Assembly: GCF_015277875.1 (NCBI RefSeq) | Contig: NZ_CP063814.1 | Span: forward strand, 3,410,001-3,474,000 | Direction of reading: 5' to 3' | DNA length: 64,000 bases | Origin: Microbacterium luteum | Lineage (GTDB): Bacteria > Actinomycetota > Actinomycetes > Actinomycetales > Microbacteriaceae | Part shown: piece after piece, positions 22,766-64,000 of the stretch | Layout of the letters: each line of letters starts with the position of its first letter | Position numbering within the stretch: position 1 is the first letter of the stretch | The notes under the pieces: model-generated | What the model was told of the DNA's origin: nothing | Database searches by the model: none | What the model saw: only the letters and a program-made list of their open reading frames with translations | Program-made: the position numbers and the translations under genes

Positions 22766-22785
22766 CAATCACGAACGGAGACACC

Positions 22786-23121
22786 ATGCGCTGCTTGATG
22801 TGCGAAGAGCCCACCACGATGTACATCCCCTCGGACGACGTCGACGGCATCGGGCTGCATAGCTGCGGTGTCTGCGGGTTCGAGATCGAAGGCCCCCGCG
22901 ACGAACCCGCGCATGTCGCCGACCATCGGAAGCTCACTGCAACGACGACCTCGACGACGATGTGGGTTCCCGCTCGAGATGGCATGAACCCCTCGCGATT
23001 CCACGGTAGTTGGCAACGGTTTCAGGGCCAGGATTCCACGCGAAATGGCATTTTCCTACAGTTGGTCCGACTCAACTCAGATGCCCGCTTGCGGCAGGCA
23101 GATCGACCTAGAGTGTGTTAA
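22786..23121 (+). CDS. Small zinc-ribbon protein
   Basis: 111 residues from ATG 22786, after ACGGAGACACC. It has two CxxC pairs, CLMCEEP near the start and CGVCGFEIEG at about 30, a typical zinc-ribbon knuckle arrangement. The part after residue 65 is low in recognisable structure and may be read-through into degraded sequence. Function unknown. It follows the 149-residue gene by 20 bp. Confidence 0.5.
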   Translation: MRCLMCEEPTTMYIPSDDVDGIGLHSCGVCGFEIEGPRDEPAHVADHRKLTATTTSTTMWVPARDGMNPSRFHGSWQRFQGQDSTRNGIFLQLVRLNSDARLRQADRPRVC

Positions 23122-23306
23122 CGAGTGAGCAGCCGCGCCGTTCAGAGGCGAGGGCGATCGCCGACGGGGCGGCTCACTCTTCTCCTCATCCCGGTGTTGC
23201 TCAGCGCGACCGGCGTCCTCGATCTCCGCATTCCTTGGCCGTGGCTCCATGGCGAGTCCGCGGGGGATCGTCCGGTCGAGCACTCACCCCTGAGAGCCCT
23301 GTCAAG

Positions 23307-23710: not shown

Positions 23711-23830
23711 CGCCCCTGAACCGGGCGATCATGCTGCAGGACCTCCGTGAGACGCCGCTCAGATAGACCGTCCTCCGGAAGCTCGACGAGTACGAATGAC
23801 CCTTTCTGAAGGGATTGAACAGGACTGTTG

Positions 23831-23850
23831 TTCTGCACAGATTCTGCTAG
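23831..23850. promoter_or_regulatory. Possible IclR-type site before the hydrolase pair
   Basis: CAGATTCTGCTAG at 23838-23850 is a near-complete inverted match to CTAGCAGAATCAG in the Rieske promoter region. It lies about 57 bp before the first hydrolase gene. Spacing to a second arm is not clear. Confidence 0.45.
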
Positions 23851-23906
23851 GTAGAGTGGGATTCCATCCGACGGAACCCGCCGTCGGTGAACAAAGGAGT
23901 TCCAGA

Positions 23907-24620: not shown

Positions 24621-25531
24621 CGACGTTTCGCTCTTTCGCGACTTCCGCTGGGACCGTCGCTTACGCCGAATGGCTGCCCGGCGGCCCCGCCCGTGCGACG
24701 GTGCTGCTCGTTCACGGCGGGGGGGTGGGCCCCGATGGCTGGAGTCGAGCGATCGGCGGGCGACCCGGGTGGGCGCCCCGTCTCGCCGAAGCCGGATACC
24801 GCGCGGTCGTGATGACGTGGCCTGGGTTGTCGGCTGGCGGCGCATGGGACCCCGACACGCGGCTGGATGGGGCGGCGGTCGCCGGCGCGATCGTGGAGCT
24901 AATCGCTGCGCTCGGCGTTCCGGTCGTCCTCGTGGTCCACTCCATGTCCGCCGCTTTCGGTTATCGGGTCGCTTTCCACCATCGGGATTCACTGATCGCC
25001 CTAGTCGCGCTGGCACCCGCTCCCCCCGGGGACATCCAGCCCGAGCCCGCCGTGCTGGAGGAGGACGCCGATCACATCGTCGTCCAGGGACGCCCGCTCA
25101 CCTGGAGGCTTCCCCGTCGCGGCTGGTGGCATCCCGGATCAGAGTTCATCGAGACGAAGCTGGTCGGTGCAAGCGAGCAATTCCCACCCGGTCACCTGGA
25201 CGAGCTCCGTTCGCAGCTGGTGCCAATCCCAGCCGGGCTCCTCCTCGAGCGGCAGAACGTTCGCGGTGCGCAGGTCCATATCGGCGACAGGGAGTTGGAC
25301 GGCCTACCGACCCTCGTGATGGTCGGTACCCACGACACCGATCATCCGATCGAGTCGGACCGCGCGACTGCTGACTGGCTCGCCGAGCGAGGCGGCGATG
25401 TCAGGTTCGTCGCGTTGACGGCAGCGAACGTGGCTGGCAACGGCCACATGCTGATGCAGGAGTCGAACAGCGATGCGGTGCTCAACCTTGTAACGGAGTG
25501 GCTCGGTCCAAATGTACGCCCGCGGCGGTGA
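24617..25531 (+). CDS. Alpha/beta hydrolase 2
   Basis: 304 residues from a GTG whose TG overlaps the previous TGA stop. The oxyanion segment is LLVHGGGVGPDGW, the nucleophile elbow VHSMSAAFGY (Ser in HSMSA), and the catalytic His is in GNGHMLMQES. It belongs to a different branch from hydrolase 1, so the two probably cut different bonds, for example diester then monoester. Convergent with the class II aldolase gene 33 bp later. Confidence 0.87.
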   Translation: MTTFRSFATSAGTVAYAEWLPGGPARATVLLVHGGGVGPDGWSRAIGGRPGWAPRLAEAGYRAVVMTWPGLSAGGAWDPDTRLDGAAVAGAIVELIAALGVPVVLVVHSMSAAFGYRVAFHHRDSLIALVALAPAPPGDIQPEPAVLEEDADHIVVQGRPLTWRLPRRGWWHPGSEFIETKLVGASEQFPPGHLDELRSQLVPIPAGLLLERQNVRGAQVHIGDRELDGLPTLVMVGTHDTDHPIESDRATADWLAERGGDVRFVALTAANVAGNGHMLMQESNSDAVLNLVTEWLGPNVRPRR

Positions 25532-25564
25532 GGATGGTGCAGCTGATCGCGACCCGGGCGCCGG

Positions 25565-26311
25565 TCATCTCTGATGGCCCGAGTACAGCAGGAGCCGTTG
25601 CTCAGCAAGTTCCTGCAGCAGGAATCGCCAGAGATGCCCGTCGTTGAATGCGTCACCCAGGTCGGGCAGGTCGGCGAGATCGTCGTCGTCGATCGGCATA
25701 GGCTCGGCCCCTGCCTGCAGAACGGCGAGGTGCACGCGAGCCAGGCTGTCGACATTGATCGCGCGGATGACGGCCTGCGGGACGCTCTCGCCGACGGCGG
25801 TGAGGCCGTGACCGCGCAGGATGCCGACGGGCCGCGTGCCGAAATCGTCCGCCATGGCCGTCGCGCGTGCGTGGTTGCGGATCAGCGCAGACGAGGAATG
25901 CGCGGGGATGCCGCCGCGCGCCATCCGCATAGCGGGGATGTTGAAGGCACCGACAATCGGTAGCAACGTCCGTCCGGTCAGCGAGAACGCGACGACAGCC
26001 GGCGGATGCGCGTGGACGACGGATCGAGCCGCAGGATTGCGGCGCAGCAGCTCAAGATGCAGAGACAGCTCGTTCGGCGCCCGGTACCCGCCGGCGAGCT
26101 CGAACGATCCCTCAAGGGGCACGGCGAGGATGTCGTCGGCGGTGGTGAACCGCAGCCCTCGCTCCTGCGGTCCGCGGGCTCGGATGAGGACGGTGTCGTC
26201 GTCGACCCGCAGGCTGACGTGCCCGAGGATGTCGTCCACGAGCCCCCGGACCGCGAGCACGCGGCAAGCATTGGCGACGAGCATGCGTTCGTCGACGTAG
26301 TCGTTCATCAT
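25565..26311 (-). CDS. Class II aldolase/adducin family protein, possible decarboxylase
   Basis: 248 residues. The family metal ligands are visible in SVVHAHPPAVVAF and GILRGHGLTAVG, and the start region DILGHVSLRVDDDTVLIRARG is typical. Members act as aldolases or decarboxylases; 3,4-dihydroxyphthalate decarboxylase of actinobacterial phthalate pathways belongs here as far as I recall. It is divergent from the Rieske oxygenase and shares its operator region. That context favours a role after dihydrodiol rearomatisation, but this is inference. Confidence 0.88.
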   Translation of the reverse strand: MMNDYVDERMLVANACRVLAVRGLVDDILGHVSLRVDDDTVLIRARGPQERGLRFTTADDILAVPLEGSFELAGGYRAPNELSLHLELLRRNPAARSVVHAHPPAVVAFSLTGRTLLPIVGAFNIPAMRMARGGIPAHSSSALIRNHARATAMADDFGTRPVGILRGHGLTAVGESVPQAVIRAINVDSLARVHLAVLQAGAEPMPIDDDDLADLPDLGDAFNDGHLWRFLLQELAEQRLLLYSGHQR

Positions 26312-26363
26312 CCACTTCTCCTTCGAGGCGTGATCTCCGATTGCGAATTCCTGGAAAATCTAG

Positions 26364-26378
26364 CAGAATCAGATTCTG
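26364..26378. promoter_or_regulatory. Palindromic operator in the aldolase-dioxygenase divergent region
   Basis: Perfect 7-bp arms CAGAATC and GATTCTG around a single A, in the 145-bp region between the divergent class II aldolase and Rieske genes. The half-site resembles the arms of the palindrome at the IclR gene (CAGAAATC), so the IclR protein is its likely ligand. Confidence 0.65.
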
Positions 26379-26456
26379 TCTTAAAGAAAACCGGTCTCGA
26401 CCGACATCATCTTCAAGGCGCGGAATAGGACTCTGACATCAGGAAGCAGCGGCCCA

Positions 26457-27851
26457 ATGGCGAGCAAGACGACGATCTTCGAGGACGTGCGGCGCGGCAT
26501 GATCCCGGCGCACATCTATAACGACGAGGAGATCTTCGAGCAGGAGAAGAGCAAGCTCTTCAGCCGCGCGTGGATTTTCGTCGGACATGAATCCGAGATC
26601 CCTCAGCCCGGTGACTACGTGGTGCGGCATGTGCTCGACGACTCGTTTATCGTCGTGCGCGATGAGAGTGGTGAGATTCGGGCGCACTTCAACATGTGCC
26701 TGCACCGCGGGATGCAGGTGTGCCGCGCCGAGGTCGGCAACGCCTCCCACTTCCGTTGCCCCTACCACGGGTGGTCATACCGCAACGACGGCCGGATTAT
26801 GGGCCTCCCGTTCCACGAGGAGGCCTACGGGGGTGAGGCAGGGTTCAACAAGAAGGGTGCACGACTGCTCCCGGCGCCGAACCTCGACACATACAACGGT
26901 CTGATCTTCATCAGCATGGACCCGAACGCGCCGACCCTGCGGGAATACATCGGCGACTTCGCGTTCTACCTCGACTACTACACCGGGCAGAGCGCCAAGG
27001 GCATCGAGCTGCGTGGCCCGCAGCGGTGGCGCGTCAAGGCGAACTGGAAGATCGGCGCCGAGAACTTCGCCGGCGACATGTATCACACGCCCCAGACCCA
27101 CACCTCGGTCGTCGAGATCGGGTTGTTCCGTGAGCCGAAGGCGGAGAAGCGCAAGGACGGCAACACGTACTGGGCCGGCAACGGCGGCGGCACGACCTAC
27201 AAGCTCCCGCCTGGCAGCCTCGAGGAGCGGCTGCGCTATGTCGGATATCCCGACGCGATGATCGAGCGGATGAAGGAGCAGTGGTCGCCTGAGCAGCTCG
27301 ATGTGATTGGCCGTGACGGGTTCATGATCTCTGCGGCATCGCTCTTCCCGAACATGAGTTTCGTGCACAACTGGCCGAAGGTGGAGGACGGGGACGACGT
27401 GCTGCCCTTCATCTCGATCCGTTCGTGGCAGCCCATTAGCGAGAACGAGACGGAGGTCTACTCCTGGTTCGCGGTCGATGCCGAGGCGCCGGAGGAGTTC
27501 AAGGATCTCTCGTACAAGGCCTACCTGATGTGCTTCGGTAGCACGGGAATGTTCGAGCAGGACGATGTCGAGAACTGGGTCTCGCTGACCACGACTGCCA
27601 AGGGTTCGATGGCTCGACGGCTCCTGCTCAACAGTCGGATGGGGACTCTCAAAGACGACACTCCGGTCGTCGCTGCGCTGACTCCTGAACAGTTCGCCGG
27701 TCCAGGCGTCGCGCACGTTGGTTACGGCGAGTACAACCAGCGTCATCTGCTCGATCGCTGGGCCGACTACCTCGACACCGATGACGAAGTCGAGGTGCAG
27801 GTCGCGAGCATCGGTACAGGCATCACCAACAACGGGGAGGCACCCGCATGA
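26457..27851 (+). CDS. Rieske aromatic-ring dioxygenase, alpha subunit
   Basis: 464 residues. The Rieske 2Fe-2S ligands are Cys81, His83, Cys101 and His104 (CLHRGMQVC, CPYHGWSY). The mononuclear iron site shows Asp207, His210 and His215 in ENFAGDMYHTPQTH. It is the catalytic subunit of a cis-dihydroxylating dioxygenase. It overlaps the beta-subunit start by 4 bp. The ferredoxin type downstream fits the class that includes actinobacterial phthalate and phenanthrene dioxygenases. The substrate is not fixed by visible residues. Confidence 0.95.
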   Translation: MASKTTIFEDVRRGMIPAHIYNDEEIFEQEKSKLFSRAWIFVGHESEIPQPGDYVVRHVLDDSFIVVRDESGEIRAHFNMCLHRGMQVCRAEVGNASHFRCPYHGWSYRNDGRIMGLPFHEEAYGGEAGFNKKGARLLPAPNLDTYNGLIFISMDPNAPTLREYIGDFAFYLDYYTGQSAKGIELRGPQRWRVKANWKIGAENFAGDMYHTPQTHTSVVEIGLFREPKAEKRKDGNTYWAGNGGGTTYKLPPGSLEERLRYVGYPDAMIERMKEQWSPEQLDVIGRDGFMISAASLFPNMSFVHNWPKVEDGDDVLPFISIRSWQPISENETEVYSWFAVDAEAPEEFKDLSYKAYLMCFGSTGMFEQDDVENWVSLTTTAKGSMARRLLLNSRMGTLKDDTPVVAALTPEQFAGPGVAHVGYGEYNQRHLLDRWADYLDTDDEVEVQVASIGTGITNNGEAPA

Positions 27852-28441
27852 TGAACACCGAGACCGGTGTCCAGATATCCGAGCAATCGCCTCTCGGCGC
27901 CCACGCCACGCGCGCCGATCGAGTCGGGCGGTCCCTATTGTTCTCCGACGAACTGCATCTCGAGGCGCATCGTTGGTTGATTGAAGAGGCTTACACCCTC
28001 GACGAGCAACGGTACGAGCACTGGCTTGAGACGCTTACAGAGGATATTCACTACATCATGCCGGTGCGTCAGACGACGGCTCTCGGGTCTTCCTTCACGA
28101 CGGCGAGGGGGATGTCGCACTGGGACGAGAATAAGTACTCGCTCAGCCGCCGGGTCGCGCGATTCCTGACTGAACACGCTTGGACGGAGGACCCTCCCTC
28201 ACGCCTGCGTCATTACGTGACGAACGTGCGTGTGTTCCTGTCCTCGGTCGAGGACGAGCTCATCGTCGACTCCGCCGTCCTGCTGTTCCGCAGCCGGGGA
28301 GACGTCAACGAGCCGTCAATCATCTCCGCTCACCGCGAGGATGTATTGCGTCGCGTCGGTGACGACCTGCAGCTGGCACGTCGGGTGATCATGGTGGACG
28401 AGTCGGTGCTCCGCATCCAGAACCTGGCGATCTTCCTGTGA
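27848..28441 (+). CDS. Aromatic-ring dioxygenase, beta subunit
   Basis: 197 residues of the NTF2-like small-subunit fold: AHRWLIEEAYTLDEQRYEHWLETLTEDIHYIMPVRQT is diagnostic (residues about 36-75), and HYVTNVRVF follows. It has a structural role in the alpha3-beta3 oxygenase. It is coupled to alpha (ATGA) and to the next small gene (GTGA overlap). Confidence 0.94.
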   Translation: MMNTETGVQISEQSPLGAHATRADRVGRSLLFSDELHLEAHRWLIEEAYTLDEQRYEHWLETLTEDIHYIMPVRQTTALGSSFTTARGMSHWDENKYSLSRRVARFLTEHAWTEDPPSRLRHYVTNVRVFLSSVEDELIVDSAVLLFRSRGDVNEPSIISAHREDVLRRVGDDLQLARRVIMVDESVLRIQNLAIFL

Positions 28442-28752
28442 GCGGCCTCGACTGGGAGGGTGCCGACGTCGATCGTGATGCCGCGGCGGCTGCGGCTGCG
28501 GAGCGCGAGCGTCTTATTGCCCGCACCGTCGGGGAGCCGCTCGTCATCGCCAACGAGTTTTCGGAGATCGAAGTGCGCCGTGTGGAAACTCACAACGGCA
28601 CGAGGCTTCTGATCGACGCCCCGAAAACTGGCCAGTGGATCGCAATCGACCCCATGGAGCTCGAGGCCCTCACCTGGCAGACCACGCAGACGTTCTCCGA
28701 GATGATCGCGCGGCCTGACCAGCCGATGTTCCCCGAAATGCGACCGCAGTAG
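28438..28752 (+). CDS. Small dioxygenase-associated protein
   Basis: 104 residues from a GTG overlapping the beta-subunit stop. It has an Ala/Arg-rich helical start and then a compact domain with TRLLIDAPKTGQWIAIDPMELEALTW. Similar small proteins sit in actinobacterial Rieske operons and are sometimes labelled as dihydrodiol dehydrogenases, which its size does not support. Its place between oxygenase and ferredoxin suggests an assembly or accessory role, unproven. Confidence 0.7.
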   Translation: MSGLDWEGADVDRDAAAAAAAERERLIARTVGEPLVIANEFSEIEVRRVETHNGTRLLIDAPKTGQWIAIDPMELEALTWQTTQTFSEMIARPDQPMFPEMRPQ

Positions 28753-28765
28753 AAAGGAGAGACCG

Positions 28766-28960
28766 ATGGCACGGATCATCGCAGACCGCAGCGCCTGTCA
28801 GGGCTACGCCAATTGCGTTGTCGCCGCGGGCGACTACTTCGACCTCGATGACGACGCCCTGGTGATCGTTCTGCGCGAGGACCTGCCCGACAGTGAGCGC
28901 AAGCGAGTAGAGGAGGCGGCGCGCAGCTGCCCCGTCTCCGCCTTGGTTGTGGAGGACTGA
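28766..28960 (+). CDS. [3Fe-4S]-type ferredoxin
   Basis: 64 residues with Cys11, Cys17 and Cys55 (CQGYANC and SCPVSAL). The middle cysteine usual for a 4Fe-4S cluster is missing, so a 3Fe-4S cluster is expected. It carries electrons from the adjacent reductase to the Rieske oxygenase. The start has AAAGGAGA at 28753-28760. The reductase start follows 1 bp after its stop. Confidence 0.93.
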   Translation: MARIIADRSACQGYANCVVAAGDYFDLDDDALVIVLREDLPDSERKRVEEAARSCPVSALVVED

Positions 28961-28961
28961 C

Positions 28962-30185
28962 GTGTCCCGGGTCGTCATCGTCGGCGCCTCTGTTGGTGGG
29001 CTCAAGACCGCCCAAGCTCTTCGAAGCGAGGGGTTCGAGGGCGAGATCGTCCTGATTGACCAGGAGCGCCATCCCACCTACGACAAACCTCCGCTCTCGA
29101 AGAAGTACCTCACCGGTGAGACGGCGCGACACGAGATCGAACTTCTTTCCGAGCACGAGACGCGGGGGATCGGAGCCATCTCGATCTTCGGCACGCCCGC
29201 GGCATCCGTCGACCTCGAAGGCCAGGTTGTGACGCTCGCGGACGGTACAGCCGTCTCATACGACACACTCGTGATCGCCACCGGGTCACGCGCCCGTCGC
29301 TCTCCGTGGGGTGAAGGTGAGCATATTCACTTGCTGCGTACCAGCGGCGATGCCGAGCGCTTGCGGGATGAGCTGGCCACAGCGAGGCACCTTGTGGTCA
29401 TCGGCGCAGGCTTCATCGGGGGTGAGGCTGCCGCGACCGCGATCACGGCGGGCGTGCGGGTCAGCATGGTTGACCCGTTCCCGGCGCCGATGTCGCGGGT
29501 GCTCAATGCCGAGGTCGGCCAGATCTTCAGCCGCAAGTATGCGCATGAGGGCGTCGAGGAGTACTTCGGAAGGACAGTCGAAGGCGTCGAACAGACGGCA
29601 GACGGGGTGCGCGTGGTGCTCGATGGCGGCGAGATCATCGAGGCCGATGCAGCTCTCGTCGGTATCGGAGCTGTGGTCAACACGGAGTGGCTCGAGGGTT
29701 CCGGCATCGAACTCGACAACGGGGTGATCTGCGACTCTGGGCTGCGGGCCATCGGGCATCCTGAGATCTTTGCCGTCGGCGATATCGCACGTTGGGCGAG
29801 TGCGTCGCGCAACGTCTCGCTGCGCCTCGAACATTGGACCAATGCCGTTGATCAGGCTCGCGTCGTCGCACACAACATCGTCCACCCTGATGATTGCGAG
29901 GACTACGACACGACCGAGTATGTCTGGAGCGACCAGTACGACTGGAAGATCCAGGTGGTCGGGCGCACCGGCGCCGACGACATCGTCATCATCGGGTCCG
30001 AGGAGGACCAGCGCTTCGCCGTGCTCTACTCGGAGAGTGGCGACTCGCTGACCGGCGCGCTCGTCGTCAACTGGCCGCGGGCGCTCGTTAACACGCGGCG
30101 AGCGGTGGCTACGAGAACCGATCGAGCCGAGGTCGCGGCGCGCCTGAGCGGCGACGGCGCGCGGTCGGTCACGCCCGCGGTCTGA
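28962..30185 (+). CDS. FAD-dependent ferredoxin reductase
   Basis: 407 residues from GTG 28962; an upstream TTG at 28947 lies inside the ferredoxin and is not preferred. The FAD motif is VIVGASVGGLKTAQALR, the NAD(P)H motif VIGAGFIGGEAAATA, and the second FAD contact EIFAVGDIARW. It is of the glutathione-reductase-like type that serves dioxygenase and P450 ferredoxins. It completes the three-component oxygenase in one operon. Confidence 0.93.
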   Translation: MSRVVIVGASVGGLKTAQALRSEGFEGEIVLIDQERHPTYDKPPLSKKYLTGETARHEIELLSEHETRGIGAISIFGTPAASVDLEGQVVTLADGTAVSYDTLVIATGSRARRSPWGEGEHIHLLRTSGDAERLRDELATARHLVVIGAGFIGGEAAATAITAGVRVSMVDPFPAPMSRVLNAEVGQIFSRKYAHEGVEEYFGRTVEGVEQTADGVRVVLDGGEIIEADAALVGIGAVVNTEWLEGSGIELDNGVICDSGLRAIGHPEIFAVGDIARWASASRNVSLRLEHWTNAVDQARVVAHNIVHPDDCEDYDTTEYVWSDQYDWKIQVVGRTGADDIVIIGSEEDQRFAVLYSESGDSLTGALVVNWPRALVNTRRAVATRTDRAEVAARLSGDGARSVTPAV

Positions 30186-30213
30186 GGATGGTCCCCGTGA
30201 CCACAAGAGGATA

Positions 30214-30236
30214 CGATTTCTGTTGTGCAGAAATCG
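30214..30236. promoter_or_regulatory. Palindrome overlapping the IclR start codon
   Basis: Perfect 9-bp arms CGATTTCTG (30214-30222) and CAGAAATCG (30228-30236) with a 5-bp spacer. The GTG start of the IclR gene lies in the spacer. Binding here would block translation-start-proximal transcription, so autorepression is likely. Confidence 0.75.
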
Positions 30237-31004
30237 CCCGGCGACGGTGTAGCGCCCCAATACCCGATCGAGTCAGTGGACAACGCACTGCGGTTGCTCC
30301 TCCTTCTTGGCGAGCGTACGGAGGAGGTAAGGCTGACCGACGTCAGCGCCGAACTCGGGGTGGCGTCTTCGACGGCGCACCGCATCCTCGCAATGCTCAT
30401 CTGGCGCGGATTCGCCCGTCAGGATCCGCGCACGAAGACCTACGGTCCGGGTCCGACACTCACGAGCGTGGCCTTCTCAATTTTCCGGCGCATGGATCTT
30501 CCGCGCCTGGCGCAGCCGATCCTCGAGGATCTCAGTTCCTCGATGGGCGAGACGAGCCATCTCGGCACCCTCGAAGGCGCGAACGTCCGCTTCATCGCGG
30601 CGTCCGAGCCGGCGGCGGCAGTCCGCGTCGCCTCACGCCTCGGACGGGAGATCCCGGCGTACGCGACCTCGACCGGCAAGGCGATGCTTGCCAGCCTGCC
30701 GGCAGAACAGCTCGGGCGCTTGTTCCCAACGGACTCACTCCCCGCGGTGACCTCGCACACCGTTCAGTCCCTTGCGGACCTCGAGAAGGAACTCGAAACC
30801 GTTCGGCGCCAGGGCTACTCGACGAACCGCGAGGAGAGCGAGGACGGTGTGGCATCGGTCGCAGTCTCGGTCGCGAACTCAGCAGGCATCAATCTCGCCA
30901 TCAACCTCGCTGCCCCAGTCCATCGTCTTCCGGTCTCGAAAGTCGCGACCTTCGGGCGAGCACTCAAGGACGCCTCGATGCGGCTGAGCGAGGCGTTGGG
31001 CTAA
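30225..31004 (+). CDS. IclR family transcriptional regulator
   Basis: 259 residues. The winged helix covers IESVDNALRLLLLLGER through TDVSAELGVASSTAHRILAMLIWRGF (about 15-70), followed by the GAF-like effector domain with RVASRLGREIPAYATSTGKAMLA. IclR proteins often control aromatic-acid operons. The GTG start at 30225 is chosen because the next in-frame start would cut into the helix-turn-helix. It lies between the dioxygenase operon and the aldo/keto reductase, all in one direction. Confidence 0.92.
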   Translation: MQKSPGDGVAPQYPIESVDNALRLLLLLGERTEEVRLTDVSAELGVASSTAHRILAMLIWRGFARQDPRTKTYGPGPTLTSVAFSIFRRMDLPRLAQPILEDLSSSMGETSHLGTLEGANVRFIAASEPAAAVRVASRLGREIPAYATSTGKAMLASLPAEQLGRLFPTDSLPAVTSHTVQSLADLEKELETVRRQGYSTNREESEDGVASVAVSVANSAGINLAINLAAPVHRLPVSKVATFGRALKDASMRLSEALG

Positions 31005-31020
31005 TCACGGGGGTGCTCCA

Positions 31021-31854
31021 GTGAACCCCGCCCCGATCCCCCTCCTCCACGGACACTCGATTCCGCGTCTGGGTCTCGGCACGTGGCCGCTCAAGGGCGA
31101 CGCGGTGCACGAGATGGTCGCGCTGGCGCTCGACATCGGCTATCGACTGATCGACACGTCTCACAAGTACCTCAACGAGGAACCGGTTGGCGCGGCGATC
31201 CGAGAGAGCGGGATCGCTCGCGAGGAGATCTTCGTCACCAGCAAGTTCAACAAGGAGAATCACAGCGTAGATGGTGTCCAGCGCGCCTATGACGAGAGCC
31301 TCCGACGGACCGGGCTCGACTACCTCGATCTATTCCTCATTCACTGGCCAGTGCCTTGGCTCGACACCTACGTTGCGGCGTGGCGGGGTCTTGTAAGACT
31401 CGTCGAGCAGGGGCGGGTCGGAGCAATCGGCGTCTCAAACTTCAAACGACCACATCTGGAACGGATCGTCGCCGCTACCGGACGCGTGCCCGACGTCAAC
31501 CAGATCCAACTGAGTGCCGACCTGGCGCGCGACGATATCCGTGATCTGCACAAGCGGTGGGGCATCGTGACCGAGGCCTGGAGTCCGCTCGGGCGCGGAG
31601 GCCCCTTGCTCACACATCCCGTCGTGGTAGACATCGCAGACCGGGTCGGTCGCACCCCCGCGCAGGTGTTGTTGCGGTGGCATGTGCAGCACAACATCGT
31701 CCCGATTCCGCGCGCGGACGACCCCAGACAGCTGCGGGAGAACGCACAGATCTTCGATTTCAACCTCACTCACGACGACCTTGCGGAGCTGAGGAACCTC
31801 GATCGCGGTGAATCAGCGGCACGAGATTCCGACTCAAAAGAGAACGGACATTAG
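31021..31854 (+). CDS. Aldo/keto reductase
   Basis: 277 residues, TIM-barrel family. The catalytic tetrad is visible: Asp and Tyr in LIDTSHKYLNEE, Lys in VTSKFNKEN, and His in LFLIHWP. NADP-binding segments PIPRADDPRQLRENAQIFDF are present at the C-terminus. It follows the IclR gene by 16 bp from a GTG start. A dihydrodiol dehydrogenase is otherwise missing from this cluster, so it may fill that step; a general carbonyl reductase role is equally possible. Confidence 0.9.
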   Translation: MNPAPIPLLHGHSIPRLGLGTWPLKGDAVHEMVALALDIGYRLIDTSHKYLNEEPVGAAIRESGIAREEIFVTSKFNKENHSVDGVQRAYDESLRRTGLDYLDLFLIHWPVPWLDTYVAAWRGLVRLVEQGRVGAIGVSNFKRPHLERIVAATGRVPDVNQIQLSADLARDDIRDLHKRWGIVTEAWSPLGRGGPLLTHPVVVDIADRVGRTPAQVLLRWHVQHNIVPIPRADDPRQLRENAQIFDFNLTHDDLAELRNLDRGESAARDSDSKENGH

Positions 31855-32370: not shown

Positions 32371-33117
32371 TCAAACTCGATGCTGGAGTCGGCTGGCGAT
32401 GCGGCAGAGGATGACTGCTCGGCTTCCGATTCGGAACCATGCGAGAGGTCGCCGGGGGCCGGTTAGGCGCACCTTGCGGGCGCGGGTCGTCACTGCGATC
32501 ACGGTTCCCTCGTCGAGTACCTCTTCCAGCGAATTCAGCATGCCGTCGAGGCCTCGTGCAGCATCCGGTCCGTGCCACGCTGTCTGCTCGCCGTAGGGGA
32601 TATCGGTGACCACGACATTGGGGCGTCGCCCGTTCAACGCGCGCCGGAGTTGTGCGGGGTCGAAGACGTCGGCTGGTGCGATGTTGTAGTCGAATGAGCC
32701 GTCGCCTGACGCGAGCCGGCGAGCGAGTCGCTGTGCAGCGGCGGCGGCATCGAGGTAGGCGGGTTTGCTCAGGCGCTCGGCGCGGGCCTGCAGTTCATTC
32801 GCGCGGGCGGTCATGCCGTGCTTGCTCAGAAGGGCGAGGTTCTTCCGGGCGAGTTCCAGCGCCGCGTGATCGACGTCGGAGCCGAGGACGCTGGTGATTC
32901 TGTCTCTATGCAGGAGTGTGAGAGTGGTGAGGAGGTGGCCGCTGCCGCAGCATGGATCCCATACCTGGGCGGTGGGGTTCGGGGTGAGCGCCAATGCTCG
33001 CTGGAACATCTCGCTGGCGAGGCGTGCGGGGAAGGCGGGGAACCCGGGGGCAGAGTGGAGCACGCCGCCGGAGAGGTCGGCGTAACTCTCTCGCGTGACG
33101 GCGTAGCGGTAGGCCAT
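32371..33117 (-). CDS. aviRa: 23S rRNA methyltransferase AviRa homologue (avilamycin resistance)
   Basis: 248 residues from ATG 33117 (MAYRYAVTRESYADLSGGV). The SAM-binding motif is VWDPCCGSGHLLTTL, with GSDVDHAALELARKNLALLS and the TDIPYGEQTAWHG catalytic-loop region. The order and wording match AviRa, the 23S rRNA guanine-N1 methyltransferase of the avilamycin producer (LHSAPGFPAFPARLA, DPCCGSG, AAKNLALLS-like). The product would protect ribosomes from orthosomycins. It begins 8 bp after the AviRb-like gene in one operon. Confidence 0.88.
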   Translation of the reverse strand: MAYRYAVTRESYADLSGGVLHSAPGFPAFPARLASEMFQRALALTPNPTAQVWDPCCGSGHLLTTLTLLHRDRITSVLGSDVDHAALELARKNLALLSKHGMTARANELQARAERLSKPAYLDAAAAAQRLARRLASGDGSFDYNIAPADVFDPAQLRRALNGRRPNVVVTDIPYGEQTAWHGPDAARGLDGMLNSLEEVLDEGTVIAVTTRARKVRLTGPRRPLAWFRIGSRAVILCRIASRLQHRV

Positions 33118-33125
33118 TCGCGTGC

Positions 33126-33956
33126 CTATGCCCGTCCGCGCTGGCGCGCGGCCTCGTAGAGAGCGATCGATGCCGCGTTGGCAGCGTTCAGCGAGCTGGC
33201 GGCGCCGCCGATGGGGATGCGTGCGACGACATCGCACGCATCGCGCCATCCCGCGCTGAGTCCGGCGTTCTCATTGCCGATCGCGAGCAGGACGGGGCCT
33301 GTCAGATCCACGTCGGCGATGTCGTCGGACCCGTTCTCGTCGGTTCCGACGATCGTGAGGGGGATGCCCGCAGCGCGTTGCTCCCGTACCCAGGTCACCA
33401 GTGGTTGATGAGATGGTTGTCGGATCACCGGCACCGCGAACAGCGACCCAGTGGAGGCGCGGACGGCTCTGGGGTCGTACGGATCTGCGCCGTGTCCGGT
33501 GACGATCAGGCCCGACCCGCCGAAGGCATCCAATGAACGGATGATCGTGCCGATGTTGCCGGGCAGGGAGGGGCGGTCGAATGCCATCCCGAGGAACGAC
33601 GGCCCCATAGGTATGCGAGACAGCTGATCGTCCGGCACGGCGGCTACGGCGATCAGCTCGGGGGAGCCGTCGTCTTGGTCGCTCAACTGATGCAGCAGCT
33701 GAGCCGCGACGGCTACCCGCTCGCCTCCTGATCCTTCGATAACCTGTGCACCCCACCGCGACAGCGGCCGATCCGCGTCATAGAGGACTGCGCGGATCGG
33801 CCAGCCCCGCTCGAGTGCGAGGCTGATGGGGCGCACACCCTGCACGATGAACTCGCCGGCCCGCTGGCGCTTGTTGCGGTTGTGGAGCAGAGCTTCCCAC
33901 TGTTGGAATCTTGCGTTCGGCCGGGAGACGCGCAGAGTTGGCTTACGCGCGTTCAA
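33126..33956 (-). CDS. aviRb: 23S rRNA 2'-O-methyltransferase AviRb homologue (SpoU/TrmH family)
   Basis: 276 residues from a TTG at 33956 that overlaps the GyrI stop by 14 bp; the open frame extends further up but has no better start. It has NARFQQWEALLHNRNKRQRAGEFIVQGVRPI at the substrate-binding N-domain (split here for description) and the SPOUT knot motifs DRPSLPGNIGTIIRS, LAIGNENAGLS and SSLNAANAASIALYE. These match AviRb, which 2'-O-methylates a 23S rRNA uridine and acts together with AviRa. Finding both adjacent is strong support. Confidence 0.9.
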   Translation of the reverse strand: MNARKPTLRVSRPNARFQQWEALLHNRNKRQRAGEFIVQGVRPISLALERGWPIRAVLYDADRPLSRWGAQVIEGSGGERVAVAAQLLHQLSDQDDGSPELIAVAAVPDDQLSRIPMGPSFLGMAFDRPSLPGNIGTIIRSLDAFGGSGLIVTGHGADPYDPRAVRASTGSLFAVPVIRQPSHQPLVTWVREQRAAGIPLTIVGTDENGSDDIADVDLTGPVLLAIGNENAGLSAGWRDACDVVARIPIGGAASSLNAANAASIALYEAARQRGRA

Positions 33957-34425
33957 CGGGAATCCAGACCTCGGCGGTTGCGGCGCGCTGCTCGCCTGGT
34001 CGGCGCTCAGTGACGATCGACGGCCCCGGACGCAGGCGCCACGGGTGTGACGGAAACCACTCGCTGACAATGTCCATCCAGGCCGACGCAAAAGGAGCGC
34101 CCGTGCGGAACACCGCCCATTTGCCGGCAGGAACCTCGATCACATCGAGGCGCTCAGGTGCGGGCGGAGCCGCATCGAGGGCGACACCGACCATGAACGT
34201 GAACCGACTGTTCACTGCGTAGTCGGCGTCGACCTCCGTACTCACCTGAAGCAGACCCGAGGGCTCCGAGCAGCCCAGTGCTCGGAGCCGCTCCACGTTC
34301 TCCGCAGACAGCGCCGTGATGTGTGCCTCGACATGAGGATTCCGGAATTCCGACACGACCGGGACGCACGCGGCGTAACCGATCAGGCGGAAGGCCGTCC
34401 GCTCGACGATACGGGCGTCTAACAT
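33943..34425 (-). CDS. Stand-alone GyrI-like small-molecule-binding protein
   Basis: 160 residues of a GyrI/effector-binding domain: RIVERTAFRLIGYAACVPV, then LDVIEVPAGKWAVFRTG and EWFPSHPWRLRPGPSIV. It is clearly paralogous to the C-terminal half of the divergent AraC regulator. GyrI-like domains bind drugs or other cationic or hydrophobic ligands. It is the first gene of the operon with the two rRNA methyltransferases, so it may sequester or sense the same antibiotic. Inference only. Confidence 0.85.
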   Translation of the reverse strand: MLDARIVERTAFRLIGYAACVPVVSEFRNPHVEAHITALSAENVERLRALGCSEPSGLLQVSTEVDADYAVNSRFTFMVGVALDAAPPAPERLDVIEVPAGKWAVFRTGAPFASAWMDIVSEWFPSHPWRLRPGPSIVTERRPGEQRAATAEVWIPVERA

Positions 34426-34672
34426 GCTTCCCTTCAGCTTGGACTCTCGTGGTGCGAGACGATTTCCAGGGTGTTCGTCACGCCGGGTCCAGCGCCCGAC
34501 AATTGGAGACCGATCAAGTCGGGTGAAGGCGCCCGGGACGCCTGATGGTGTGTGGTGTTGCGTGTCGTCGGACGTCGCCGGCCGTCACGAGCCGGCCCGC
34601 TCGGATCGGAGTCGCACGTTCGGACAAACCACTGCACCCCGGCAAGCAGAATTGGAATGAAGGGAGGCTTGT

Positions 34673-35551
34673 GTGATCAGTGAGCTCAACAGGCTCATCG
34701 AGGTCGTCGAAGCGGATCTGTCCGACGACCTCGACATCGGTGCGCTGGCTGCTTCCTTCGGCACCACGGAGTACCACTTGCGGCGGATGTTCGCATCGCT
34801 TGTCGGCATGCCGTTGTCCGAGTATGTGCGGCGTCGGCGGATGACGGTCGCCGCGGCCGACGTCATCGCGGGCGATCCGCTTCTCCAGGTTGCGGTTCGA
34901 TTTGGTTATGGCTCGGCCGAGGCATTCGGACGTGCGTTCCGGGCGGTCCACGGTGCGGCGCCTATCGAGGTGCGGACGAACGGCGGCCCGCTTCGGTCAC
35001 AGCCGCAACTCACGCTGCGACTGACTGTCCACGGCGCCACGTCGATGGACACGCGTATCGTGGATCGACCCGCGTTCCGGCTCGTCGGCCATGCTGCACG
35101 CGTTCCGCTCATCCACCGGAGCGCGAATCCTCACATCCAAGCGCACGTCGCTTCTCTGCCGGCGCACGAGCACGCGCGACTGACGGCGCTCGGCAACACG
35201 GATCCTCACGGACTGCTTCAGATAAGCGCAGATGTCGATTCCGACTACACCGAGGGAAGCACACTGACCTATCTGCACGGCGTTGCCCGGGACGCCGCGA
35301 CGACCACGCCGGAAGGACTCGACGTGATCGAGGTTCCTGCCGGCACGTGGGCTGTGTTCCGGGCATCTGGACCATATCCCGCGGCTCTGCAGGAGACGTA
35401 TGCGGCATCGGCATCCGAGTGGTTTCCGTCGAACCCGTGGCTGCTGCGACCAGGCCCCTCGATCGTCGCGATCCTCGATCGCGCTGAAGACTTCCGTTCC
35501 GCGACGACGGAGTTGTGGCTGCCGATCGTCCGCCAGCGTGATGACGTGTAA
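34673..35551 (+). CDS. AraC family regulator with C-terminal GyrI-like domain
   Basis: 292 residues from GTG 34673 (AAGGGAGGC just upstream). The two AraC helix-turn-helices are at the N-terminus (DLDIGALAASFGTTEYHLRRMF and LLQVAVRFGYGSAEAFGRAFRAVHG), and a GyrI-like effector domain fills 125-290. This Rob/TipA-style layout senses small molecules. It is divergent from the GyrI-AviRb-AviRa operon across 247 bp that contains a GCCGGC-N8-GCCGGC hairpin at 34577-34596. It is the natural candidate inducer of the resistance genes. Confidence 0.9.
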   Translation: MISELNRLIEVVEADLSDDLDIGALAASFGTTEYHLRRMFASLVGMPLSEYVRRRRMTVAAADVIAGDPLLQVAVRFGYGSAEAFGRAFRAVHGAAPIEVRTNGGPLRSQPQLTLRLTVHGATSMDTRIVDRPAFRLVGHAARVPLIHRSANPHIQAHVASLPAHEHARLTALGNTDPHGLLQISADVDSDYTEGSTLTYLHGVARDAATTTPEGLDVIEVPAGTWAVFRASGPYPAALQETYAASASEWFPSNPWLLRPGPSIVAILDRAEDFRSATTELWLPIVRQRDDV

Positions 35552-44635: not shown

Positions 44636-44683
44636 CTATGCCGGTGCGTCTCCTTCGATCTATGCCGGTGCGTCTCCTTCGAT
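44636..44683. repeat. 24-bp perfect tandem duplication at the PIN gene stop
   Basis: Two identical 24-bp units (44636-44659 and 44660-44683) duplicate the last seven codons plus stop (IEGDAPA, TAG) of the PIN-domain gene. The second unit lies beyond the stop and is not translated. Likely a replication-slippage event. Confidence 0.9.
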
Positions 44684-59384: not shown

Positions 59385-59616
59385 CCCAGATATACCGCCG
59401 CCGAGCCCAGCCAGGGGCGCGGGCGTCGTCAGAAGGATGATCCTCGCCAGGGGAGGATGTCAGTGTCTCGCGTGGGGCGGTCGGCGAGGATGTGCTCGGC
59501 AACGGCGCCGCATCGATGAGTGCTTGCAGTGCCGTGGTGTACTTCTCTCCGGTCGCCTTCATGCGTTCCCTGGCGGCTTGCTGCAGCCGACGGGAGGTTC
59601 GCTTCTCAGTTGTCAT
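59374..59616 (-). CDS. Small basic protein coupled to tniQ, 80 residues
   Basis: From ATG 59616, overlapping the tniQ stop by ATGA. It begins EKRTSRRLQQAARERMKATGEKYTTALQALID, a basic helical segment seen in small proteins of actinobacterial mobile elements, followed by a Ser/Pro-rich tail ending RRRYIWDDR. Function unknown; possibly an accessory or regulator of the transposon. Confidence 0.7.
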   Translation of the reverse strand: MTTEKRTSRRLQQAARERMKATGEKYTTALQALIDAAPLPSTSSPTAPRETLTSSPGEDHPSDDARAPGWARRRYIWDDR

Positions 59617-61703
59617 GACGTCCCTGCTTTCCCGCGGGGGCGGACGGTGATGCCGGCGGCGTGCAGGTGCCGGTTGATGGTCATCTCGCTGCATCCGGCA
59701 AGGTGCGCGATCTGTGCCATAGTCCTCCCTTGCGTCTCATAGTGGTCGCGTAGCCAATCGGAATCGAGGGTGAAGGTGGGGGGTCGTCCGCGACGCGACT
59801 TGGTGCCCGTGTCGGCGAGGATGCGGCCCACGGTCTGCCGGGACACGTTCACGTCCGCGGCGATCTCGTACGTCGACGCCCCCGCCGCATACGCCCGCGC
59901 TAACACATCGGGAGGCATCACGTCCGCGGCCGTTGATCGTGCTGGGCGGCTCCGCGCCCACGCCGCAGGCGCGTCCGGGACACCGTCCGAAGGCTCGGGT
60001 GTCCATGTGACGGGCTCATCGATGCCGTTGACGAGAAGGAAGTCCGCGGCGAGCTGGTCGAGTCCCGTCCGCACCGCTGACGGCAGTCCATCGGCGAAGC
60101 GGGCGACGGCCGGCGCGGTCACCCCTGCCTGATCCCACTCCGGCGGGATCGAATGGATCGGATTCCCCGACAGTGTCCGGTGCAGGAGCGCCCGGGCCAA
60201 ACGCCATCGTCGTCCACCCCCAGCCGATACCCCCGCCACCCGGCACACCTCCTGCCACTGGGATTCGAGGAGGATCCCGCTGTAGTCGAGGGCGCGACGT
60301 CGGGCGTAGTCAACGGGCACGTCATGCGTATCGAGGAACGCGGCCAGCCGGAGGATCGCGTGCAGGGTGCCCACGTCATGAGAGCTGCGACCGAGGTCAC
60401 GCATCACATGGGTCACCTGGCGGGCCGGCGCCTGCGGATCGAGCAATGCAAGAGCGGCGGAGTGTGTGAGCCTCGTGCCCGTGAACACCACCGCCGCCGC
60501 CAACGCCGACGCCACCACCTCACTGCCGACCCGTTGCGGCGCGTACCGGGTGATCCACTCGCCCCACAACTGTGCCGGTACCTTTCGCGCTCGTTCGACC
60601 GGGCTGACCCCTGACGGTGGTGCGGACTGCAGGAACACCGTCGGCCGGCGACGACGCCCCAGCGCGGCCGCGATCAGGGTCTGCAGTTGCGGCGTGTGCG
60701 CCGTGTACGACGAACTCTGAGCCAGCCGCCCCTGCAGCAGCGCGGCGACACTGCCCGGCTTCGCCAGTGCGGTGACGGCGAGGGTGGTGCCGACGGCGGC
60801 CCCGACGGCAGAATCCGGTCGTGCCCGTACTGCCGTCGTCCAATCCTCGCTCGCCCTAAACAGCGCCACGAGCTCCTCACCAAGCGGACTGATGTCGAGG
60901 CGATCGCCGGCGGCAATCGCGTGCCGGGCGGTACGGGACAGCAACCGAGTGTCTTCCAGCACCGCGACCGCCGGCTGCGGCGCCTCCGCATAGATCCCGA
61001 ACCCTGCCCCGCCGGTGGAAACGATCCGCATCAACGCCCGCTGCGCATCCAGGACCGCCCGCGACACTGGAGTGCGGGTCGGGTCGGCCGTGAGGTCGGC
61101 CCGACACCGGTTCGCTTGCGGGCCCCGTCCCGGCCCTTGGACGGGATTGTGGCACCGGCCAGGAACGGGAACAAGCGCGAGCGGGTGGGCACGGTACCGG
61201 GCAGGACGATCACACACGGGGCACCGGTCCACGAGCAGGCGGCGGTGGCGAAAACAGGCGAACCCGAACGGGAACTGCCACGACATCCGCCACCGGCCAC
61301 CCGAATCGACCAGGCACTCCGGGCAGTAGCGTCCCGCGGTCCCCGCCGCCGGGCATTGCGAACTGATCCGCCCCCGCCGGGTGTACCGGATCGCATGGTG
61401 CGCGAACCGCATTCTCGTCATCTCCTGGAACTGATCCGCCGGAATGCCCGTCGACGCCTCGAGCCGCGACGCCTGCTCATCAGTCAGCGCGGTGGCCCAA
61501 CTGTCCGCCATCCACGCGGTCGCCGACACCGCCACACCCTCCTGCTGCTCGATGAGGCCGAGCGCGCAGGCCATCTCGTTCATCGTCGCCCCATAGGTGG
61601 CCGCCATCTTCTCCAGCCAAGAGTCGAACGGCTCATCAGGCAGCGGCCGCACCCGAAACGGCAGCACCCGCACCTCATAGGAAATCGTCGACGTCGTGGT
61701 CAT
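59613..61703 (-). CDS. tniQ: TniQ/TnsD-family target-selection protein
   Basis: 696 residues, long for simple TniQ and closer to TnsD size. The TniQ N-terminal domain is clear: FRVRPLPDEPFDSWLEKMA, then a zinc-binding set CPECLVDSGG, FACFRHRRLLVDRCPVC. The C-terminus has two helix-turn-helix-like units (TYEIAADVNVSRQTVGRIL and TMAQIAHLAGCSEMTINRHLHAAG). It probably recognises a target sequence directly. Both ends overlap neighbours by ATGA. Confidence 0.92.
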   Translation of the reverse strand: MTTTSTISYEVRVLPFRVRPLPDEPFDSWLEKMAATYGATMNEMACALGLIEQQEGVAVSATAWMADSWATALTDEQASRLEASTGIPADQFQEMTRMRFAHHAIRYTRRGRISSQCPAAGTAGRYCPECLVDSGGRWRMSWQFPFGFACFRHRRLLVDRCPVCDRPARYRAHPLALVPVPGRCHNPVQGPGRGPQANRCRADLTADPTRTPVSRAVLDAQRALMRIVSTGGAGFGIYAEAPQPAVAVLEDTRLLSRTARHAIAAGDRLDISPLGEELVALFRASEDWTTAVRARPDSAVGAAVGTTLAVTALAKPGSVAALLQGRLAQSSSYTAHTPQLQTLIAAALGRRRRPTVFLQSAPPSGVSPVERARKVPAQLWGEWITRYAPQRVGSEVVASALAAAVVFTGTRLTHSAALALLDPQAPARQVTHVMRDLGRSSHDVGTLHAILRLAAFLDTHDVPVDYARRRALDYSGILLESQWQEVCRVAGVSAGGGRRWRLARALLHRTLSGNPIHSIPPEWDQAGVTAPAVARFADGLPSAVRTGLDQLAADFLLVNGIDEPVTWTPEPSDGVPDAPAAWARSRPARSTAADVMPPDVLARAYAAGASTYEIAADVNVSRQTVGRILADTGTKSRRGRPPTFTLDSDWLRDHYETQGRTMAQIAHLAGCSEMTINRHLHAAGITVRPRGKAGTS

Positions 61704-62857
61704 GCGGCGGCCGCCTCGCCGTCCTGGTTCTTGCGGCGGCGTGCCTGGTGGTTTCGCAGCTGCTGATCCAGCTTCGCCTCAAGCTCGCGGCGCTCCGTCT
61801 CCGCGCCCTCATCGATGCGGATGTCGTCGAGCAGTTCCCGATCGATGACCTCCCGCCCTGTGCGGATCGCGCGGGACGCGCCGCGACGGATCAGGTCCAT
61901 GAGGGATCCGATGTTGCCGGTGGTGCGGGCGAACAGGTACCGGGACAGGTCGACCAGCATCCCGGGGCGAGCACCGGTGAGGACGAGAGCTTGTTCGACG
62001 CCGAATAGCAGCCGGTCCCACTCCTCCCTGCCCCTCTTGTGGGTAAGCGTGAAGGGGCTGAGCCCGAGGACGGTCCATCGGCGGAAGGTCTGCGCCATCG
62101 CCGCCTCCCGGCCGGTCTCCCCTTCACCCACCAGGCCGCGGGCGCGGAGGGCGACGCCGGCGAACAAGAACGTCGCGTTGTATTCGTTTGCGAGCCACTT
62201 CAGCTGGTTGGCGACTTCGACCCCGTCGCGGGTGCGCATGTTCAAGAAGTGCAGGTCGTCAACGATCACCAGCCGGGTGTCATGCCGTTCGATGCACTCC
62301 GCCGCCGCCCGGGCCAGGTCCCGGCCGGCCATGGAGCGGTGCAGGATGCCGGCGGTGGCGGGGTGGGCGTAGAAGCCGAGGATCATCATGTGCAGGCCCT
62401 TGATCGTCAGCCGCCCCGTCAGCGTCACATGACACACCGGCAGGTGCCGCACGTCCCTGTCCGCGTCCAGCCATCCCCCGGCCTCCGCGATCCGCTGCTG
62501 GTGGAACACGCGGCCGAAGTTGTTCACCACGGTCGACTTCCCGAGCGCCGGCGGGGCGTCGATCGCTGCGGCTGACTTCACCCGGTCGGAGTCCTGCAGG
62601 TTGGAGTCGAGGATGTCCGCCAGCTGCAGTTCGATGTCCTCTACCTGCCGTGTGCGCAGCAGGATGTTCGCGTGCCACACCCGCCGCTCCAAGTCGTAGA
62701 CGACGCGATCGCGAGCAGGCAACGACTCCAGCTGGGCGCGCGAGAGCTCCTCAGGGCGAGCGCGGGGAGGCCGTTCGGCGAAGTCTGTCCAGCCCTCGTA
62801 GGTGGAGAGGCTCCGTTGGCGGGGCGGCTGCTGCGGGGCGCTCGTCGGGCTGGTCAT
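61700..62857 (-). CDS. tniB: TniB/TnsC-family AAA ATPase
   Basis: 385 residues. The P-loop reads APPALGKSTVV (about 102-112), with the first glycine of the motif replaced; the Walker B is RLVIVDDLHFLN and a sensor region GVALRARGL follows. It is the regulator that links target selection (TniQ) with the transposase (TniA). The start at 62857 overlaps the tniA stop by ATGA. Confidence 0.93.
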   Translation of the reverse strand: MTSPTSAPQQPPRQRSLSTYEGWTDFAERPPRARPEELSRAQLESLPARDRVVYDLERRVWHANILLRTRQVEDIELQLADILDSNLQDSDRVKSAAAIDAPPALGKSTVVNNFGRVFHQQRIAEAGGWLDADRDVRHLPVCHVTLTGRLTIKGLHMMILGFYAHPATAGILHRSMAGRDLARAAAECIERHDTRLVIVDDLHFLNMRTRDGVEVANQLKWLANEYNATFLFAGVALRARGLVGEGETGREAAMAQTFRRWTVLGLSPFTLTHKRGREEWDRLLFGVEQALVLTGARPGMLVDLSRYLFARTTGNIGSLMDLIRRGASRAIRTGREVIDRELLDDIRIDEGAETERRELEAKLDQQLRNHQARRRKNQDGEAAAA

Positions 62858-64000
62858 CGGAGCATCTCCATCGGTTCGAAGTGGTAGTCGCCGCGGATGG
62901 TGGGCTCGTCGATGTCGTCCTCGTCGTCATCATCACCGGTCTCGGGCGTGTCGACGCGTCGGCGCGGGTCGCGGACGGAGCCGGTGAGCTCGGTTCCGAG
63001 ATCAGACGAGGCGGTCAGTTCCGCGTCGAGCATCCGTTGCACGGTGCGTAGCGACCACACCCCGTCCGGGTCCGGTTCCTTGTCGTTCAGCTGTGCGGCC
63101 ATCCGGGCGCTCATCCGCCGCTCCGATGGCGTCAGACCACGGCCGGCGCCCCAGTCCTCCAGCAGCTGCGCGGCGACGTCGTCAACCTGGGAGGGGCGAC
63201 CCTGCCGGATTGCGATCTTCTTCGCGTACTCCAACGCGTCCAGGCTGAACGGGGTGTCGAAGCTGCCCTTGTGCTCCCATTCGAGGGTGTGCCAGGTGTG
63301 GTCCTCGGGGTCGTGGAAGTAGATTCTGGTGAGGTCGTCGGGGTTGACGAAGAATGGCCACTCCGTACCCTTGTCGCGGTGGATCGACCGGGCCCGGTTG
63401 CGGTACTTCGCGACCGACTCGCCGGTGTAGCGGAGTTTGTGGATCTCCACCCCGTAGTGGTTGAACTGCCGCTTCACCACCGGCAGCAGCTCCAGCAGCA
63501 CGTTCCGGTCGGTGGGCAGACGCAGCTGTCCCGCGACAGCCAGGCCCTGTTCGTATCGTTGCGCGGGGCTGAGCTTTACCCCGGGCAGGTTTGGATCCTC
63601 CAACGAACTGTGGGGACGAAGGTGGTAGACGGTGGCTACCCATTCCCGGATGATCTGCTCCAGCTGCGGCACCGTGTAGACGGCCTCTGCTTCGGGGTCC
63701 TCGCCGCGTCCGGCGACGTCCGCGCCCTTGTAGCCGGGCAGCTCTTGCAGCAGGTCGTCGAGGGTGCGGAAGAATCGTTCCACGGGGCTCTTGTCGGTGG
63801 GCTGGTAGATCCGGGCGGGTTGGATCGAGATCCCCAACCGGGCGCACCCGCTGGTGAGATGCTCCGACAGGTAGGCGGCGCCGTGGTCGACGACCAGCGT
63901 CTCCGGCAGGATGCCGGCGCGGGTGAACCGGGACACCTTCGTACGGGTCGGGTCTACCAGCAGCGTGTCGGGCAGACCGTGGTACGGCCAGCGAGCGGAC
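62854..64000 (-). CDS. tniA: TniA/TnsB-family DDE transposase (N-terminus beyond the window)
   Basis: The open frame continues upstream of 63936 to the right edge (WPYHGLPDTLLVDPTRTKVSRF), so the gene is partial. The catalytic core shows Asp in ETLVVDHGAAYLSE and Glu in PTDKSPVERFFRTLDD; the first Asp is probably outside or near the edge. A Mu-type C-terminal domain follows (TGESVAKYRNR, PFFVNPDDLTRIYF), then an acidic tail (GDDDDEDDIDEP). Confidence 0.92.
   Translation of the reverse strand, partial: SARWPYHGLPDTLLVDPTRTKVSRFTRAGILPETLVVDHGAAYLSEHLTSGCARLGISIQPARIYQPTDKSPVERFFRTLDDLLQELPGYKGADVAGRGEDPEAEAVYTVPQLEQIIREWVATVYHLRPHSSLEDPNLPGVKLSPAQRYEQGLAVAGQLRLPTDRNVLLELLPVVKRQFNHYGVEIHKLRYTGESVAKYRNRARSIHRDKGTEWPFFVNPDDLTRIYFHDPEDHTWHTLEWEHKGSFDTPFSLDALEYAKKIAIRQGRPSQVDDVAAQLLEDWGAGRGLTPSERRMSARMAAQLNDKEPDPDGVWSLRTVQRMLDAELTASSDLGTELTGSVRDPRRRVDTPETGDDDDEDDIDEPTIRGDYHFEPMEMLR

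Follow-up and report, generated by a model that had tools for sequence, protein, structure and literature searches.

What do homologues of both 23S rRNA methyltransferases of an avilamycin producer, AviRa and AviRb, do side by side in Microbacterium luteum, what controls them, and how did they come to lie there? The question was addressed in a 64,000-nucleotide stretch of DNA (the window; positions 3410001-3474000 of a 3.52-Mb genome in a single contig), to which all coordinates below refer, and in which a gyrI-like, an aviRb-type and an aviRa-type gene form one tight minus-strand operon. Our analysis makes it likely that this is an inducible orthosomycin target-protection operon, switched by a divergently encoded AraC-GyrI regulator and carried on a Tn7-like transposon. 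Here, producer-type ribosome methylases occur in non-producers as a unit of their own that is probably inducible, and the transposon carrying it has recently moved across species borders.

The aviRa-type gene (32371..33117, minus strand, 248 aa) matches the Pfam family PF11599 "AviRa" over the full length of the profile (positions 1-232 of 232; 229.5 bits, cut-off 25.7), and its matches among solved structures are PDB 1o9h (E 4.9e-70) and 1o9g (E 1.9e-69), with the next structure at E 0.012. Alignment with the producer enzyme reveals an identical WDPCCGSG motif and TDIPYGEQT in the place of TDLPYGERT, motifs assigned to S-adenosylmethionine binding and catalysis. The aviRb-type gene (33126..33956, minus strand, TTG start inferred) encodes a SpoU-type 23S rRNA methyltransferase with a SpoU_methylase and a SpoU L30e-like domain in a Pfam scan, all of the SpoU motifs in alignment (PGNIGTIIRS, IGNENAGLS, and ASSLNAANAA) and a match to PDB 1x7o at 340.8 bits, the second-best structure reaching 114 bits. 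The PDB table itself names these entries only as "rRNA methyltransferase"; we take 1o9g to be AviRa and 1x7o to be AviRb of the avilamycin producer. With both enzymes present, and each having its closest solved relative there by a wide margin, the locus resembles that of Streptomyces viridochromogenes Tu57 as described in the available text of PMC6804068; in that text the avi genes lie within a biosynthetic cluster with transporters, whereas here they stand apart as an operon accompanied by GyrI-type genes and borne on a transposon.

A housekeeping origin of AviRb was considered and rejected, as the remaining four SpoU enzymes encoded in the genome are 27-36% identical to it and distant in the AviRb tree, where they occupy very long branches apart from the AviRb rows. 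Because these branches are so long and two of the four paralogues fill under half of the columns, the tree gives separation and not the order of the paralogues. AviRb also scores below the cut-offs of the RlmB (86.5 versus 160.15) and NshR/TsnR (51.1 versus 425) models, and AviRa is the sole match in its own genome, with no paralogue at E <= 0.001. The first-pass annotation had named grouping with housekeeping families as a result that would count against its resistance reading; the AviRb tree gave no such grouping, and AviRa had no genome paralogue to group with. A second tree of 35 hand-chosen AviRa rows (15 from loci and the PDB chain, and 20 of 24 proteins fetched from 120 listed), built without a housekeeping outgroup, joins the window to locus L005 (support 100/98) and then to L006 and Agromyces silvae (100/99), with the producer chain in a separate nine-row branch. 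The same tree contains a deep side branch (100/100; L042, L125, and L126) drawn from Microbacterium and other families of the order, whose members may have a different target; in L042, this AviRa faces an AviRb-type gene end to end.

The operon is compact throughout. Its first gene encodes a stand-alone GyrI-like protein (33943..34425, minus strand; PF06445 53.4 bits, cut-off 26) and overlaps the inferred start of aviRb by 14 nt on the same strand, while 8 nt separate aviRb (stop codon 33126-33128) from the ATG of aviRa at 33117. Facing the operon is an AraC regulator (34673..35551, plus strand; HTH_18 65.1 bits, PF06445 85.7 bits), the GyrI-like C-terminal domain of which is 52.8% identical to the stand-alone protein (E 1e-54). 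The arrangement proposed in the first-pass annotation, neighbouring AviRa and AviRb homologues 8 bp apart that follow a GyrI-like gene and face an AraC protein with a paralogous domain, is thereby confirmed. The idea that the stand-alone gene is a recent duplicate of the AraC gene was unsupported, GyrI being 52-57% identical to all four AraC domains compared. Across 13 AviRb-AviRa loci, with each lineage counted once (the window, L005-L009, L011, L014, L039, L040, L042, L062, and L063), a GyrI-domain gene adjoins the pair in five, in differing layouts: AraC-GyrI is divergent in the window, L005, and L006 and downstream in L063, and a stand-alone GyrI is divergent in L040. In the record of L014 (Actinomadura formosensis), the AviRa frame is split into two pieces. 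AraC-GyrI homologues were present in 9 of 11 genomes; three of these genomes (G146, G295, and G215) have an AviR locus without AraC-GyrI and an unlinked homologue at 69, 60, and 46% identity, respectively, and the two in which none was found (G330 and G130) both carry divergent AviRa forms.

The DNA in front of the operon supplies a link to the regulator. A 31-bp block with 16 invariant positions is common to the pre-operon DNA of four loci (the window, L005, L006, and L123) and defines a candidate operator at 34493..34522 on the minus strand. Against a background of 413 non-overlapping 300-bp tiles, six tiles reached 13 of the 16 positions and one reached 14; the window's own site is absent from this background because the tiles happen to split it. 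Among seven further loci, L040 scored 16, L007 15, and L039 13, and the remaining four (L009, L011, L014, and L062) scored 10-12. The motif lies upstream of six independent AviR operons, four of which served to define it. Its orientation follows that of the operon in all four loci used for training and is reversed in L007 and L040. A strict form of the pattern had exactly one match in each of 9 of 18 genomes, the window's own included, and the reversed control had none in the 18; eight of the nine sites lie at an AviR operon, and the ninth (G013) directly precedes an AraC-GyrI gene. As the strict pattern was loosened at one position after L007 (the locus of G295) had been seen, the independent strict matches are those of G146 and G013 only. 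No strict site was found in G215 or G130, despite the presence of AviRa in both.

The motif also accompanies the regulator where no AviR operon is linked to it. All five unlinked AraC-GyrI paralogues (L172 and L174-L177) have a best site of 13-15/16 per 3.9-kb stretch, starting 73-102 nt before the predicted start of the regulator. Its occurrence both there and before AviR operons points to direct control by the regulator, and the simplest reading of these sequences would be that the AraC-GyrI family binds the motif and controls itself, several AviR operons having come under this family. On this comparative evidence, regulation of the AviR operon by AraC-GyrI is strongly suggested. The inducibility claimed earlier is likewise well supported by the linked GyrI genes and the shared motif, although induction as such stays a prediction. 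The regulator has the same domain order as Rob (AraC plus GyrI-type), yet its match to the NCBIfam model RobA_TF (residues 7-262) scores 52.8 bits where the cut-off is 380, and it is therefore not Rob; further differences from Rob are its place next to a resistance operon and the presence of its likely site upstream of its own paralogues as well.

The presence of the operon in M. luteum is best understood from its occurrence elsewhere. The AviR region is shared with three other Microbacterium species, represented by G340, G148 (metagenome-assembled genome 67-17), and G213 (5K110), over 46, 53, and 10 kb at 98.7-100% identity, and the rpoB loci of these species are 87-89% identical to that of the window's genome. 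Element DNA compared between the window's genome and G340 is 99.6 and 99.99% identical. Homology with G340 and G213 ends at window position 22961, beyond which the flanks are unrelated, and G148 continues collinearly to 4969. The AviR-carrying element has recently moved between Microbacterium species.

Position 22961 is also the inner left end of a Tn7-like element (22961..22983, plus strand), which begins TGTGGGTTCC. The right end lies outside the window at 70181 (GGAACCTACA) and agrees with the left end at 17 of 23 positions; the ends have the inverted form TGT...ACA, with boxes at 5, 37, and 72 in both left ends and one box found in the right end. Transposition genes follow on the minus strand, namely tniQ (59616..61703; PF06527 64.7 bits, cut-off 27), the TnsC-like tniB (61703..62857; PF05621 29.5 bits, cut-off 22.4), and the TnsB-like tniA (62857..64000, continuing outside the window to 65007), the last assigned by position and by an HTH_29 match just over cut-off in the G340 copy. 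In G340 the element measures 45,547 bp, is flanked on each side by a 5-bp target-site duplication (AGCCG), and sits at the 3' end of dnaB. In the window's genome the right end is again at the 3' end of dnaB, with GCTGC after it; the same pentamer, GCTGC, stands before an outer left end located 59 kb upstream of the window, and the inner left end at 22961 shows no target duplication. The outer ends delimit a composite of 129,633 bp that contains the whole window. The first-pass annotation, which had placed mobile elements on both sides of the operon, thus understated the case, and the mobility it surmised is borne out by the transposition genes, terminal repeats, 5-bp duplications, and near-identical region in other species.

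Examination of dnaB regions in 11 further genomes identified a related right end in G148; in the other ten no element end was found next to dnaB (nine had none at all, and G018 had a weak end-like match far from the gene). No empty site for the window's element was recovered, its left flank having no match over 200 bp in any of the 11 other dnaB regions. Part of the left flank of G340 is collinear with DNA behind the G001 dnaB gene, and the 7 kb nearest the element is unmatched. Overall, dnaB may serve Tn7-like elements in Actinomycetota as an attachment site, and the literature search found no published report of a Tn7-like insertion at the dnaB 3' end. Two observations on dnaB itself were made in passing. 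Its match falls into two parts within one 896-939 aa frame in three genomes (L145/L148 in G340, L143/L147 in G003, and L144/L146 in G215), as an intein would give. In addition, G213 carries a second copy of the last 35 dnaB codons (L153; G213:C136:9168-9272) at a distance of about 9 kb from the complete gene, a trace such as an attachment site copied by another island would leave.

The wider distribution of AviRa bears on whether the enzymes serve resistance at all. Of 366 genomes of the genus, nine had an AviRa match above the Pfam cut-off (four of the nine sharing the AviR region); the corresponding figures were 7 of 398 in a family draw (three long matches and four of 26-29 bits), 4 of 396 in an order draw, and 1 of 396 in a phylum draw, namely the window's own genome; each count includes that genome, and the draws may overlap. 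Because so few genomes of the genus and phylum exceed the cut-off, the presence of AviRa here is not due to chance. In an initial set of 13 AviRa loci, AviRb directly preceded AviRa in nine; one (L004) was cut at a contig end, and three Microbispora loci had no AviRb in the stretch examined. These AviRb-less loci, together with the recurrence of AviRa relatives in Nonomuraea, Streptosporangium, Microbispora, and Actinomadura, lend something to the view that the methylases serve rRNA maturation or stress, answer to a general stress regulator, and have no role in resistance. We consider this improbable, as AviRa occurs rarely and patchily in the draws from the order and the phylum, the genes are transposon-borne, and AviRb is distant from the housekeeping paralogues. 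A plasmid home was also considered and discarded, since AviRa matched 3 of 72,556 plasmid records, none from Microbacterium. A 177,760-bp M. paraoxydans plasmid shares window positions 22216-29971 at 97.9% identity, and the 43.7 kb of it examined contained no AviR genes.

In the mechanism that we favor, the AraC-GyrI protein would sense a small molecule through its GyrI-type domain, bind 34493-34522, and turn on the coupled operon gyrI-aviRb-aviRa. The 23S positions named for the two producer enzymes, in the title of Treede 2003, are U2479 and G2535; by homology, AviRb would 2'-O-methylate U2479 and AviRa would methylate G2535, and the two modifications would keep orthosomycins from binding to the large subunit. 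A role as buffer or modulator, through binding of the ligand sensed by AraC-GyrI, is probable for the stand-alone GyrI. Several findings weigh against this proposal. Eight of the 13 AviRb-AviRa loci have no linked GyrI gene in the stretch examined, and in L005 the stand-alone gene is reduced to its first codons (MSDARMIERTAVR; window MLDARIVERTAFR), in frame with aviRb, which makes it dispensable there. Four of the six motif-bearing AviR operons are the motif's own training set, and the motif is missing from the loci of Actinomadura and S. camelliae. On the side of the transposon, the TnsA-like protein barely exceeds its threshold (26.9 bits, cut-off 26.5), and the integrase match of TniA in the G340 copy stays below it (rve 21.8, cut-off 32.6). 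A more specific version is put forward only tentatively: a dedicated circuit in which the GyrI domain senses an orthosomycin and switches the two-enzyme operon on, free GyrI sequesters or degrades the drug, and the entire unit spreads in Microbacteriaceae as Tn7-like cargo behind dnaB.

The identity of the drug admits a further alternative. GyrI-type domains are broad ligand binders, and the enzyme pair occurs in many non-producers with no sign of the drug they meet; the same operon, regulator, and transposon might instead protect against another large-subunit inhibitor that acts at or near the same rRNA helices and is sensed by GyrI. This appears rather unlikely to us, because both enzymes together are the signature of orthosomycin producers. 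A 23S methyltransferase conferring orthosomycin resistance on a non-producer is known in EmtA, a single enzyme acting at another 23S position, as opposed to the two enzymes here. Kocuria carniphila 988 also speaks against the alternative: this non-producer has an AviRb-type gene and is the only avilamycin-resistant strain of five, with a minimum inhibitory concentration (MIC50) of >1024 ug/ml versus 1 in the four others (PMC12562059). As in our case, this is a non-producing actinobacterium, and its AviRb-type gene was judged to be horizontally acquired; the available text of that report makes no mention of AviRa, a regulator, or an element, all of which are present here.

Orthosomycin target protection could also have been inherited from a biosynthetic cluster that has lost its other genes. 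A Streptomyces camelliae plasmid (L062), on which the AviRa-AviRb pair, in inverse gene order, neighbors two dTDP-glucose genes and lies close to genes for ketosynthase III, could be a remnant of this kind. For M. luteum we regard such an origin as very improbable. The first-pass annotation had found no biosynthetic genes here, and inspection of the window's 54 called genes, by eye and partly with Pfam, likewise revealed none, so that by the genes of the window the operon lies outside any orthosomycin biosynthetic cluster, which sets it apart from producer self-resistance. Ketosynthase matches in the genome comprise one strong match (a 457-aa frame) and two weak ones (24.6 and 22.3 bits); a single ordinary ketosynthase with two weak matches argues against an orsellinate-type synthase, other orthosomycin genes not having been searched for. 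Gene order and regulator are, moreover, as in other loci without an evident cluster, and no orthosomycin-type cluster was seen beside 12 AviR loci, the neighbors being inspected by eye and without a family search.

Individually, the parts of this system have precedents in AviRa/AviRb resistance, in the AviRb-type gene of Kocuria, and in resistance-carrying Tn7-like elements; their combination was not found in the literature searched, nor was either AviRa or AviRb found there together with Microbacterium. The available text of Benler 2021 (PMC8649781) describes an uncharacterized clade made up mainly of Tn7-like elements from Actinobacteria; it reports Wadjet JetD in 34 elements and the combination of defense and resistance genes in 22. 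Such elements, including Tn7706 of Rhodococcus (PMC12915292), likewise have TnsA, TnsB/TniA, TnsC/TniB, and TniQ, TGT...ACA ends, and resistance or defense cargo; unlike here, AviR cargo goes unmentioned in the available text of both sources. The locus offers a testable regulator-operator pair together with a 45.5-kb element with exact ends.

Further cargo surrounds the operon. The same element carries a Wadjet-type gene set (49128-57508: DUF3375, SbcC-like, and JetD), in which the place of the DUF4194 (JetB) gene is taken by an IS1380-type insertion (about 50962-52630) that neither G340 nor G148 has. Beside these genes lie a PIN-domain protein (44666-45679) and an 855-aa AAA_13 protein (46318-48882), which are possible further defense cargo. 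The composite also contains two related aromatic-ring dioxygenase clusters, at 26457-31851 and at -34631 to -29134 in window coordinates, whose DNA is 70-84% identical; the first is also largely present on the M. paraoxydans plasmid, at 97.9% identity.

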